Shown here: in pieces, positions 5,974 to 48,826 of the stretch | Position numbering within the stretch: the first letter of the stretch is position 1 | How the letters are laid out: the number at the start of each line of letters is the position of its first letter | Assembly (NCBI RefSeq): GCF_900142185.1 | Contig: NZ_FQZZ01000003.1 | Coordinates: 62,001 to 126,000 of the forward strand | From: Lutimaribacter pacificus | GTDB taxonomy: Bacteria; Pseudomonadota; Alphaproteobacteria; Rhodobacterales; Rhodobacteraceae | Length of the DNA stretch: 64,000 nt | Direction: 5' to 3' | Made by a program: the position numbers and the translations under genes | Notes under the pieces: generated by a model | Databases searched by the model: none | Seen by the model: only the letters and a program-made list of their open reading frames with translations | What the model was told of the DNA's origin: nothing

Positions 5974-6708
5974 TCAGCCATGCACCTTGGTATAGGTGCC
6001 CTCGCCCGCCAGGATGCCGCGGAAGCCGCCCGGCTCGTCCAGCGAAAAGACGATGATCGGCAGGTTGTTGTCGCGCGCCAGCGCGATCGCGCTGGCATCC
6101 ATCACGCCCAAGTGCTGCTGCAGCACGTCGTCATAGGTGATCGTGTCATAGCGCGTGGCATCGTCGAACTTCTTGGGGTCCTTGTCATAGACCCCGTCCA
6201 CCTTGGTGCCCTTGAAGATCGCCTCGCAGGCCATTTCGTTGGCGCGCAGCGTGGCGGCGGTGTCGGTGGTGAAATAGGGGTTGCCGGTGCCCGCGGCGAA
6301 GATGCAGACGCGCTTTTTCTCAAGGTGGCGCACGGCGCGGCGGCGAATATAGGGCTCGCAGACCTGGTCCATCGGGATGGCGCTGATGACGCGGGTATGC
6401 ACGCCCAGCGCCTCGAGCGCGCCCTGCATCGCCAGCGCGTTCATCACGGTGGCCAGCATCCCCATGTAATCGGCGGTGGTGCGCTCCATCCCCTGCGCCG
6501 AGCCCTGAAGCCCGCGAAAGATGTTGCCGCCGCCGATCACCATGCAGATTTCCACCCCCATGTCGTGAACCGATTTCACCTCTTCGGCGATTCGCTGGAC
6601 GGTGGGCGGGTGCAGGCCGAACCCCTGATCCCCCATCAGCGCCTCCCCCGAGATTTTCAGCATCACACGCCTGAATGTGGTTTTCGGGGGCTGGGCTGCG
6701 TCGGTCAT
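5974..6708 (-). CDS. pyrH: Uridylate kinase
   Basis: PyrH is the hexameric bacterial UMP kinase (UMP to UDP) of pyrimidine synthesis. The 244-residue protein belongs to the amino-acid-kinase fold: [12 protein letters not shown] near residue 16, the glycine-rich [10 protein letters not shown] loop, [26 protein letters not shown], and the [10 protein letters not shown] nucleotide-site motif. It is the first gene of the minus-strand envelope operon. Its 5' flank is shared with the divergent miaA gene and contains the paired palindromes at 6808-6842. Confidence 0.97.
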
Positions 6709-6807: not shown

Positions 6808-6842
6808 AAACCGCGCGGTTTTGCGGCTAAATCGCGCGGAAT
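6808..6842. repeat. Paired 14-bp palindromes, locus A (pyrH-miaA divergent gap)
   Basis: AAACCGCGCGGTTT at 6808-6821 is a perfect palindrome. AAATCGCGCGGAAT at 6829-6842 is a near copy overlapping the miaA start codon. Their centres are exactly 21 bp apart, about two helical turns. The same arrangement recurs at 37917-37951 and 47675-47709. The function is unknown; the spacing suggests two protein dimers bound on one DNA face, or a mobile palindromic unit. Confidence 0.7.
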
Positions 6843-7722
6843 GGATGCCATCGCCACGATACCCGCCGACCGCCCCGTCCTGATCGCCGGCCCCACCGCC
6901 AGCGGCAAGTCGGCGCTTGCGCTGCGCATCGCGGAGGATGCGGGCGGGGTGATCGTCAATGCCGACGCGATCCAGGTGTTCGACTGCTGGCGCATCCTGA
7001 CCGCACGCCCCGACGCGGACGACGAGGCGCGCGCGCCGCACCGCCTTTACGGTCATGTGCCCTGCGATTTTGCCTATTCGGTGGGGCATTGGCTGCGCGA
7101 GGTCGCCGAAATCCTGCAAAGTGGCGACCGCCCGATCATCGTCGGCGGCACGGGGCTGTATTTCCGCGCGCTGACCGAGGGGCTGGCCGATATCCCCGCC
7201 ACGCCCCCCGGCATCCGCTCCGAGGCCGATGCGCTGCGGCGCGACGGGGGCGCGGGCGCGCTGCTGGCCGGGCTGGACGACAAGACCGCCGCCCGCATCG
7301 ACCGCCGGAACCCGATGCGCGTGCAGCGCGCGTGGGAGGTGCTGCGCGCCACCGGGCGCGGGCTGGCCGACTGGCAGGACGACACGCCGCCGCCCCTGCT
7401 GCCGCTGGACGCCGCCGCGCCGTTGCTGGTCGAGGCCGGCAAGGACTGGCTGAATGCCCGCATCGCGCAACGCTTCGACAGGATGCTGGAGCTGGGCGCG
7501 CTGGACGAGGCGCGCGCGCTGCTGCCGCGCTGGGACCCTGCCCTGCCCGCCGCCAAGGCCATCGGCGCACCGGAGCTGATCGCGCATCTGCGCGGCGAGC
7601 TGACGCTGGAGCAGGCGCGCGAGGCCGCGACCGTCGCCACCCGGCAATTCGCCAAGCGCCAGCGCACCTGGTTTCGCGCCCGCATGGGCGGATGGACGCG
7701 GATTGCCGCCGAGACGCTTTGA
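6841..7722 (+). CDS. miaA: tRNA dimethylallyltransferase
   Basis: MiaA transfers dimethylallyl from DMAPP to A37 of tRNAs reading UNN codons. The 293-residue protein starts at the ATG at 6841. The P-loop GPTASGKS is at residues 14-21. The family motif [18 protein letters not shown] stands in place of the commoner NADSMQVY form, and the DMAPP-site region [21 protein letters not shown] is present. So are [13 protein letters not shown] and the C-terminal tRNA-contact motif [13 protein letters not shown]. An open frame continues upstream but runs antisense through pyrH and is not coding. The gene is divergent from pyrH. Confidence 0.95.
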
Positions 7723-37513: not shown

Positions 37514-37918
37514 ATGAAAATCCACCGCGCAGGCAGCCGCCCGTCACAAGGCCCGAACCCCGATTACTTCACAGGCACCGTCCGGTTCGATCCTGTCATC
37601 TCGGCCGAAGCACCCGCACGCATCAACGCCGTGACCGTCACGTTCGAGCCCGGCGCGCGCACGGCATGGCACACCCATCCCTACGGCCAGACCCTGATGG
37701 TCACCGCCGGCAAGGGTCGGATCGGCAAGCGCGCGGGCACGGTGCAGGAGGTTTTCCCCGGCGATGTGGTCTGGTTCGAACCCGGTGAGGAACACTGGCA
37801 CGGCGCCGCGCCGGACTGCGCGATGACGCATATCGCGATCCAGGAGAAAGAGGGCGACAGCGCCGCCGACTGGCTGGAAAAGGTGGCTGACGCCGATTAT
37901 CTCGCACAGGCCGGTTGA
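37514..37918 (+). CDS. Small cupin-domain protein
   Basis: This 134-residue single-cupin protein starts at the ATG at 37514 after a strong CAGGAG site. Cupin motif 1 is GARTAWHTHPYGQTLMVTAGKGRI (His residues in WHTHP) and motif 2 is FPGDVVWFEPGEEHWHGAAP (Glu-x-x-His). It resembles the small cupins annotated as (R)-mandelonitrile lyase-like or carboxymuconolactone-associated, but the activity is unproven. GC content is host-like, so it marks the right border of the AT-richer islet. The gene runs into a pair of palindromes and an inverted repeat at its 3' end. Confidence 0.88.
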   Translation: MKIHRAGSRPSQGPNPDYFTGTVRFDPVISAEAPARINAVTVTFEPGARTAWHTHPYGQTLMVTAGKGRIGKRAGTVQEVFPGDVVWFEPGEEHWHGAAPDCAMTHIAIQEKEGDSAADWLEKVADADYLAQAG

Positions 37919-37951
37919 ACCGCGCGGTTCGGGGTCAAAACCGCGCGGTTT
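37917..37951. repeat. Paired 14-bp palindromes, locus B
   Basis: GAACCGCGCGGTTC (37917-37930, overlapping the cupin stop codon) and AAACCGCGCGGTTT (37938-37951) are both perfect palindromes. Their centres are exactly 21 bp apart. The second is identical to the first element at 6808-6821. Confidence 0.75.
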
Positions 37952-38052: not shown

Positions 38053-38126
38053 GCGGGTGTAGCTCAATGGTAGAGCCGCAGCTTCCCAAGCTGAAGACGA
38101 GGGTTCGATTCCCTTCACCCGCTCCA
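38053..38126 (+). tRNA. tRNA-Gly, anticodon CCC
   Basis: This 74-nt cloverleaf includes an encoded CCA. The acceptor stem is GCGGGTG / CACCCGC, the D arm GCTC-AATGGTA-GAGC, and the anticodon loop TTCCCAA with anticodon CCC. The T arm is AGGG-TTCGATT-CCCT, the discriminator T, then CCA. The 27-43 pair is a G-A mismatch. It reads GGG codons. Confidence 0.95.
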
Positions 38127-47568: not shown

Positions 47569-47645
47569 CGGGCTATAGCGCAGTCTGGTAGCGCGTCCGT
47601 CTGGGGGACGGGAGGTCGTAGGTTCGAATCCTGCTAGCCCGACCA
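47569..47645 (+). tRNA. tRNA-Pro, anticodon GGG
   Basis: This 77-nt cloverleaf includes an encoded CCA. The acceptor is CGGGCTA / TAGCCCG, the D arm GCGC-AGTCTGGTA-GCGC, and the anticodon loop CTGGGGG with anticodon GGG. The T arm is GTAGG-TTCGAAT-CCTGC, the discriminator A, then CCA. It reads CCC and CCU codons. Confidence 0.96.
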
Positions 47646-47654
47646 TCACATACC

Positions 47655-47734
47655 CACCCCGGACCATCCCCTGAAAACCGCGCGATTTGCCTTGCGTTCC
47701 GCGCGATTTTTCCGGCACAACACCCCGGACCATC
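47655..47734. repeat. 14-bp direct repeats flanking locus C
   Basis: CACCCCGGACCATC occurs at 47655-47668 and again at 47721-47734, 66 bp apart. The two copies bracket the paired palindromes at 47675-47709 between tRNA-Pro and the deaminase-like gene. This could reflect a small duplication or insertion footprint, or extra protein sites. Confidence 0.6.
47675..47709. repeat. Paired 14-bp near-palindromes, locus C
   Basis: AAACCGCGCGATTT (47675-47688) and GTTCCGCGCGATTT (47696-47709) are variants of the 6808 and 37917 elements. They are again exactly 21 bp centre to centre. They lie about 40 bp upstream of the deaminase-like gene. Confidence 0.7.
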
Positions 47735-47749
47735 AGGGGACGGGATGCG

Positions 47750-48826
47750 ATGACCGGGGTTCTTGCCAGCCAGCAGATCGAAGCGTTGTGCGACAGCGGC
47801 ACCATCGGGATGACCGCGCCGCTGGCCGAGGGGCAGGTGCAGCCCGCCAGCCTCGACCTGCGGTTGGGGACCGTCGCCTATCGCGTGCGCGCCTCGTTCC
47901 TGGCCGGCCATGGCCGCCGCGTCGCGGACCGGCTGCAACAGTTCGAAATGCACCGCGTCGATCTGAGCGACGGGGCGGTTCTGGAAAAGGGCTGCGTCTA
48001 CCTTGTGCCGCTGATGGAATCGCTGGCCCTGCCCGGCGATATCCATGCCGTGGCCAACGCCAAAAGCTCGACCGGGCGGCTGGACCTGCTGACGCGCGTG
48101 ATCACCGATGGCGGGGTCGAGTTCGACCGCATTCCGGCGGGCTATACCGGCCCGCTCTATGCCGAGATCTGCCCGCGCTCGTTCTCGGTGCTGGTGCGTC
48201 CGGGGATGCGGCTGAACCAGATCCGGTTCCGGCAGGGACAGGCGGTGCTGTCGGACGATGAGCTGCGCGCCCTGCACCGCGATCAGCGCCTTGTGGATGG
48301 CGAGGCGGTGATACAGGACGGGCTGGGCTTTTCGGTGGACCTGACGCCGGGGCCCGGCGGGCTGGTGGGCTATCGCGCCAAGCCGCATACCGGGGTGATC
48401 GACCTGGACCGGATCGGCGCCTACGACCCGGCCGAGTTCTGGGAAAAGGTCATCGCCCATGACGGGCAGATCATCCTAGACCCCGGCGCGTTCTATATCC
48501 TCGTCAGCCGCGAGGCGGTGCATATCCCGCCCGATTACGCCGCCGAAATGGCGCCCTATATCGCCATGGTGGGCGAGTTCCGGGTGCATTACGCGGGGTT
48601 CTTCGACCCCGGTTTCGGCCATGACGCGGCGGGCGGCGCCGGGTCGCGCGGCGTGCTCGAGGTGCGCTGCCACGAGGCGCCTTTCGTGCTGGAACACGGG
48701 CAGGTCGTCGGCCGGCTGGTCTATGAACGGATGTCGCAGGTGCCCGCGCAGGTCTATGGCGCCGGGATCGCCTCGAACTACCAGGGACAGGGGCTGAAGC
48801 TGTCCAAGCATTTCCGCGCGGGCTGA
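47750..48826 (+). CDS. 2'-deoxycytidine 5'-triphosphate deaminase-like protein (double dUTPase-fold)
   Basis: This 358-residue protein is twice the size of ordinary Dcd (about 190 residues). The first half has QVQPASLDLRLG, ANAKSSTGRLDLLTRVITDGGVEFDRIPAGYTGPLYAEICPRSFSVLVRPGMRLNQIRF, the dCTP-deaminase/dUTPase motifs including the S-S-T-G-R loop. The second half repeats the fold more loosely (YILVSREAVHIPPDYAAEM, GFFDPGF, LVYERMSQVPAQVYG). This tandem form is known in Alphaproteobacteria. It should make dUTP or dUMP for thymidylate. The ATG at 47750 has a GGGACGGG stretch upstream. Paired palindromes lie just ahead. Confidence 0.88.
   Translation: MTGVLASQQIEALCDSGTIGMTAPLAEGQVQPASLDLRLGTVAYRVRASFLAGHGRRVADRLQQFEMHRVDLSDGAVLEKGCVYLVPLMESLALPGDIHAVANAKSSTGRLDLLTRVITDGGVEFDRIPAGYTGPLYAEICPRSFSVLVRPGMRLNQIRFRQGQAVLSDDELRALHRDQRLVDGEAVIQDGLGFSVDLTPGPGGLVGYRAKPHTGVIDLDRIGAYDPAEFWEKVIAHDGQIILDPGAFYILVSREAVHIPPDYAAEMAPYIAMVGEFRVHYAGFFDPGFGHDAAGGAGSRGVLEVRCHEAPFVLEHGQVVGRLVYERMSQVPAQVYGAGIASNYQGQGLKLSKHFRAG

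Follow-up and report, generated by a model that had tools for sequence, protein, structure and literature searches.

Palindrome pairs at a constant 21-bp spacing in Lutimaribacter, candidate sites for a chromosome-organising protein

Background

What kind of site consists of two short palindromes set exactly 21 bp apart, and is it read as DNA by a protein, as a stem by RNA, or not at all, being a copied repeat? The question is raised by a 64,000-nucleotide stretch of the Lutimaribacter pacificus genome (the window), in which a sequence-only reading had picked out such pairs at three loci and had explained them as two dimers bound on one face of the helix. The pairs were followed through the genome of L. 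pacificus (G000), that of L. saemankumensis DSM 28010 (G390) and the metagenome-assembled genome (MAG) KhS_metabat.39 (G391), the last being 90% complete and carrying near-duplicate contigs (L202/L203 and L205/L225 are near-copies). Contigs are numbered C and extracted stretches L.

Sites in the window

At each of the three loci two 14-bp elements lie 21 bp apart, at the coordinates first given, and Pfam and ARAGORN bore out the flanking genes that had been named (pyrH-like/miaA, cupin/tRNA-Gly, tRNA-Pro/dCTP deaminase).

Pair 1: 6808..6842 (6808-6821/6829-6842), no strand assigned; AAACCGCGCGGTTT and AAATCGCGCGGAAT, centres 21 bp apart
Flanks of pair 1: pyrH-like gene, 5974-6708, minus strand, and miaA, 6841-7722, plus strand, divergent (Pfam AA_kinase, IPPT)
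Pair 2: 37917..37951 (37917-37930/37938-37951), no strand assigned; two perfect AACCGCGCGGTT 12-mers
Flanks of pair 2: starts at the stop codon of a cupin gene, 37514-37918, plus strand, with tRNA-Gly, 38053-38126, downstream (Pfam, ARAGORN)
Pair 3: 47675..47709 (47675-47688/47696-47709), no strand assigned; AACCGCGCGATT and TTCCGCGCGATT 12-mers
Flanks of pair 3: lies 3' of tRNA-Pro, 47569-47645, and 41 bp 5' of a dCTP deaminase gene, 47750-48826, plus strand (ARAGORN, Pfam)

The second 12-mer of pair 1 ends on the A of the miaA ATG, and the overlap of this arm with the called start (6830-6842) leaves no ordinary ribosome-binding site there. The consensus of the aligned intergenic pairs is AAACCGCGCGGTTT-NGGNCCN-AAACCGCGCGGTTT. 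A/T preference is similar on the inner and outer flanks of the arms, and further out only a weak A/T signal is seen, 7-8 bp away; the similarity indicates that the arms are self-contained palindromes. Beside several single pairs stands a short TTTGCATATTT-like stretch, rich in A/T, that is kept between species (L. pacificus C4:132908, C4:286441 and C4:215321 and their L. saemankumensis counterparts).

Number of pairs and constancy of the spacing

A family of three loci, as first described, is far too small: a 12-mer pair search at up to 3 mismatches found about 92 pairs in the L. pacificus genome. The pattern CCGCGCGR-N13-CCGCGCGR gave 57 forward and 61 reverse matches there, and 1 and 1 in a reversed control, which excludes chance. 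When all [CT]CGCGCG[GA] elements in 864 kb of L. pacificus were considered (100 kb of which were stretches selected for holding sites), distance 21 was seen 33 times against an expectation of about 0.5 per distance; the other distances up to 300 with at least 4 cases were 53 (8 cases), 125 and 236 (5 each) and 104, 157, 195 and 198 (4 each). Within 1.094 Mb of contiguous sequence (764 kb of L. pacificus and 330 kb of L. saemankumensis, in tiles selected with the site list already known), all 27 perfect AACCGCGCGGTT elements had a partner at exactly 21 bp, as did 25 of the 33 elements one step weaker. Random single elements with no preferred spacing, the outcome that would have spoken against the original proposal, were thus not what was found; obligate pairing at two helical turns with a variable linker is supported, as two dimers on one face would predict. 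The preference extends to coding sequence: distance 21 occurred 15 times there, and other distances 0.5 times on average. At the DNA level the coding pairs are therefore genuine, although the seven-residue period of protein helices may contribute to them.

Conservation between species

Contigs C4 of L. pacificus and C10 of L. saemankumensis are collinear at a median identity of 87%. Scored against the L. saemankumensis DNA compared, 78 L. pacificus pairs gave 20 aligned counterparts and 5 flank matches only, the remainder having none; one aligned row (C1:608628) was taken out as paralogous after it matched a three-pair module (see below) at another locus. Across 10 orthologous intergenic pairs, identity was 217/240 (90%) in the arms, 53/90 (59%) in the linkers and 480/666 in the flanks (Fisher p 4e-10 and 1e-9), the flanks of module pairs including neighbouring arms. 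The corresponding values for 9 orthologous coding pairs were 209/216, 74/81 and 574/666. Retention of the arms while the intergenic linkers drifted implies that selection maintains both arms and the distance between them. Whether linkers are conserved had been proposed as a check on the idea of a copied repeat, and the linkers of single pairs differ both between copies and between species.

Three-pair modules

The helical phasing predicted for two dimers on one face reaches beyond the single pair. Modules of about 190 bp, each made of three pairs, occur in at least 22 copies (9 in L. pacificus, 8 in L. saemankumensis and 5 in the MAG), which matching surroundings reduce to 12 loci, six of them common to at least two species; one L. 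saemankumensis module has its middle pair below threshold, and some module pairs are degenerate. Pair centres stand at 0, 53 (once 54) and 157/158 or 147/148, or in the mirror image, so that the spacings are near 5, 15 and 14 helical turns. At the locus of L. pacificus C2:427868 the length is 158 in L. pacificus and L. saemankumensis and 147/148 in the MAG, that is, one turn less. Two orthologous modules compared base by base have all six arm positions in register with no internal indel, identity being 61/72 and 60/72 in the arms and 73/118 and 63/119 at the other bases.

Further motifs were counted. One close to CGCGGTTCCTGACRAAAGGTTAA occurs 9 times in L. pacificus, 7 times in L. saemankumensis and not in the MAG (control 0). 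The hexamer GTTAAC is rare in the 1.094 Mb (30 occurrences), yet 10 of 35 clustered pairs (0.5 expected) have a copy no more than 40 bp away, compared with 2 of the 34 single ones. A GGTATCATGATACC-like palindrome (at most 2 mismatches) is present in the long spacer of 9 module copies at 3 of the 12 loci. It lies at helically phased positions, 34.5, 35.5 or 46.5 bp away from the third pair's centre, and is present in 0 of 10 module copies of total length 157.

GGTATCATGATACC-like palindrome in modules: L. pacificus C1:179400, C3:366921 and C2:427913; L. saemankumensis C14:137153; MAG L202:611 and L203:1001

A one-mismatch copy without pairs is found at L. pacificus C5:194924, and outside the genus such copies occur in 21 of 97 genomes, so the palindrome is not specific to modules. 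No Rfam family scored above its gathering threshold at a module in the 7 module-bearing loci scanned; the sole Rfam match was a cobalamin riboswitch (RF00174) at L019 5658-5878, about 7.5 kb from the C1:273234 module.

Genomic locations and promoter control

Of the 78 pairs found in the L. pacificus DNA examined, called genes hold 28, convergent gaps 26, tandem gaps 15 and divergent gaps 9; for the 30 found in L. saemankumensis the figures are 11, 13, 5 and 1, respectively. These counts leave out pairs scoring below 46 and rest on a codon-usage gene finder blind to tRNAs, with a Pfam check on a few genes only. Altogether 39 of 108 pairs lie inside called genes, and the ten coding hosts scanned all belong to ordinary Pfam families, such as PGI, oligopeptidase F, HrpB and AcrB. 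Among single tandem sites, 13 of 15 are nearer the upstream stop codon than the next start (median distances 15 bp and 75 bp). Module copies fall between convergent genes in 18 of 22 cases (2 tandem, 2 ambiguous), and 11 of the 12 module loci have a convergent arrangement in one species or more, convergent gaps making up 12% of intergenic regions; the exception, C2:427868, is tandem in L. pacificus and L. saemankumensis and is called convergent in one copy of the MAG. Pairs are found on contigs C1-C6 at least, and no confinement to the origin region was seen, the parS-bearing contig C6 also holding pairs. On C1-C3 their spacing is slightly more regular than random placement would give (CV 0.64 vs 0.92, clusters having been merged by hand beforehand). 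The sites are thus spread over the chromosome, within and between genes, as chromosome-organising sites are.

These locations bear directly on the reading of the pairs as operators, in which a global transcription regulator of the NrdR or ArgR kind, with many targets, would bind them as a repressor or roadblock. Whole-turn geometry is known from NrdR, for which a requirement for two boxes and measured whole-turn spacing are reported (PMC12051234). Divergent-gene gaps hold 8 of the 34 single intergenic pairs, and there promoter regulation is possible; in addition, a Phd/YefM-like gene (P0001) is preceded by two pairs in both L. pacificus (L089 9710-10383, C2) and L. saemankumensis (L196). However, the classical promoter-operator reading sits poorly with single tandem sites that lie by stop codons, with more than a third of pairs intragenic and with module loci that are nearly all convergent. 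Nor was a common pathway evident among the flanking genes inspected, most of which were named by eye, partly from their first residues. With about 92 sites, most of them intragenic or close to gene ends, the distribution is also not that of a small regulon of promoters. A regulator of this kind is therefore considered unlikely. The architectural reading has a difficulty of its own, since the preference for gene ends could merely reflect avoidance of promoters.

Taxonomic distribution and the question of copying

The pairs are, among the genomes searched, a feature of one genus only. A perfect-core search of 390 genomes of the order gave 41 pairs in L. pacificus and 0-2 in each of the rest, none of which belongs to the genus. 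With as many as 3 mismatches allowed, L. pacificus has 92 pairs, L. saemankumensis 96 and the MAG 29 (the last with near-duplicate contigs), and outside the genus a single occurrence was met, 142 of 143 family and class genomes having none. A scan of named genomes in which linkers of 7-11 were allowed returned 12 stretches, of which six from L. saemankumensis and one from the MAG KhS_metabat.39 all had linker 9; the other five came from Tannerella (2), Verrucomicrobiales, Phycisphaerales and Bacteroides. The Tannerella MAG (L068, L069) and the Verrucomicrobiales MAG (L060) carry runs of a 21-bp tandem repeat with a AACCGCGCGGTT unit and are probably unrelated, and the Bacteroides stretch has a spacing of 22, with no 21-bp pair in its genome. 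The same architecture in other letters elsewhere in the family was also considered and rejected, as a scan for 21-bp-spaced palindromic pairs irrespective of sequence gave 0 in 362 kb from 20 other genomes (two of the stretches only 1.1 and 1.3 kb long); the same scan gave 10 pairs in 700 kb of L. pacificus and 11 in 330 kb of L. saemankumensis. The scan of the genome and related Rhodobacteraceae that had been recommended thus found pairs genome-wide in three genomes of the genus, but no spread beyond it. Nothing on the pairs was found in those parts of the open-licence literature available on the motif, on palindromic intergenic repeats of Rhodobacteraceae, on nucleoid proteins of Rhodobacter or on Lutimaribacter genomes.

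Restriction to one genus would also suit a mobile repeat family, similar to REP/BIME or MITE elements, that had spread within it, and several properties of the modules agree with such an origin. Modules at different loci are up to 86% identical over 118 bp (C2:467673 versus the C6 module), which is as high as between orthologous modules, and this sharing of sequence across loci suggests that modules may have been copied about. The L. saemankumensis module at C10:191331 corresponds to one pair in L. pacificus (C4:181451), and another, at C10:109835, has no L. pacificus counterpart, about 600 bp of other sequence being present there; location between convergent genes is likewise familiar from BIMEs. 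Against this stand the linkers of single pairs, which appear unshared between loci, and the selection on arms at a fixed spacing. The RAYT-type transposase domain (Y1_Tnp, PF01797) was detected in 0 of the 3 genus genomes and in 5 of 14 control genomes, which disfavours a REP family of that type. A phage or plasmid origin was likewise set aside, one module having no match in plasmid and phage collections and the exact patterns none in viral contigs. A mobile repeat is consequently held to be distinctly improbable as an account of the whole family. The suspicion of a copied repeat, then, fails for single pairs and has some substance for the three-pair modules, which may owe their spread to copying.

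The 2-kb surroundings of the L. pacificus modules at C1:179277, C2:467673 and C3:366800 have stretches of 173-200 bp in common (85-87% identical); these are absent from a comparison of the modules alone and are possibly a further intergenic repeat.

The RNA-stem alternative

It is very unlikely that the pairs act as RNA stem-loops, that is, intrinsic or bidirectional terminators in which the arms pair into a 12-14 bp stem with a short loop: many sites do lie just past stop codons or between convergent genes, the arms of many can pair, and two of the three window sites give more stable folds than shuffled sequence does (z -3.7 and -2.7), unlike the first (z -1.1), but the spacing is invariant, many sites are intragenic, the modules keep helical phase, and compensatory arm changes are lacking (5 double changes versus 15 in shuffles, a deficit towards which the score cut-off, set on the two arms together, is biased). 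Moreover, deviations on the sense strand of tandem sites give A-C mismatches (15) over G-U pairs (4), the wobble thus falling on the wrong strand, and a T run of at least 5 is absent from the stem ends of 60 of 69 intergenic sites (a figure without a background rate).

Proposed mechanism and significance

The pairs are probably double-stranded DNA sites for a putative oligomeric protein with a part in chromosome architecture or insulation more than in promoter control. The constant two-turn spacing, free linkers, self-contained arms and phased modules together point to contacts made from one side of double-stranded DNA, and this geometry is well supported. A single sequence-specific protein would dock on each 35-bp site as two dimers, one to each AAACCGCGCGGTTT palindrome, and the dimers would touch because they sit exactly two turns apart. 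Three pairs would then build a module of about 190 bp, with 5 and 10 (or 9) turns between pair centres, as a larger complex on one face, joined at some loci perhaps by a partner protein at GGTATCATGATACC. Such sites would most likely serve as anchors for chromosome architecture or insulation. Locations at stop codons, between convergent genes and in housekeeping genes favour an architectural or insulating role over promoter control, a preference that is the least supported part of the proposal. Pairing, spacing, helical phase, conservation, restriction to the genus and location can be seen in the sequence itself, whereas the protein, its pair of dimers and its architectural role are inferred.

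More tentatively, and with rather lower confidence, a fuller version may be entertained, in which a genus-specific system has a putative protein on about 90 pairs as dimers of dimers, with phased three-pair complexes at no fewer than 9 L. pacificus junctions, nearly all convergent and some with a GGTATCATGATACC partner, anchoring loops or providing topological or transcriptional insulation. The product of P0001 (89 aa; Phd/YefM-like at 2e-6, below the Pfam cut-off) was considered as the binder and is not claimed; it was not found in the MAG, nor, there, beside the relative of the gene that follows it in L. pacificus. That following gene resembles a universal stress protein by eye, and no adjoining toxin gene was recognised.

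If the proposal is correct, a DNA-binding system acting across the whole chromosome either originated in a single marine bacterial genus or acquired a new specificity there, and it would give insight into how systems of this kind come into being. Its geometry would be precise enough for dimer contacts and helical phase to be read from sequence alone, and it would permit a direct test of whether complexes bound where convergent genes end act as insulators of transcription or of supercoiling.

Comparison with known systems

NrdR box pairs resemble the Lutimaribacter pairs in that each site has two palindromic boxes separated by whole helical turns. They differ in that NrdR boxes are commonly three turns apart and belong to ribonucleotide reductase promoters, whereas the Lutimaribacter pairs are two turns apart, number about 92, lie mostly at gene ends or within genes, and are also built into three-pair modules. 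The ARG boxes of ArgR are likewise paired palindromes separated by a whole number of turns.

Enterobacterial REP and BIME elements are repeated palindromes at gene ends and between convergent genes. The Lutimaribacter repeats are like them in location, the intergenic pairs favouring gene ends and avoiding promoters (although the divergent minority noted above stands apart), and in the sequence that modules share between loci; they are unlike them in the lack of a RAYT gene, free single-pair linkers, strict helical spacing and intragenic pairs.

The sites of MatP (matS), SlmA, Noc and ParB (parS) are many scattered single palindromes, within and between genes and with no tie to a pathway. The Lutimaribacter sites share with these the many scattered palindromes and the lack of a pathway tie, and differ in that the palindromes are paired and assembled into phased modules. 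We know of no other chromosome-organising site system that combines paired palindromes with phased modules.
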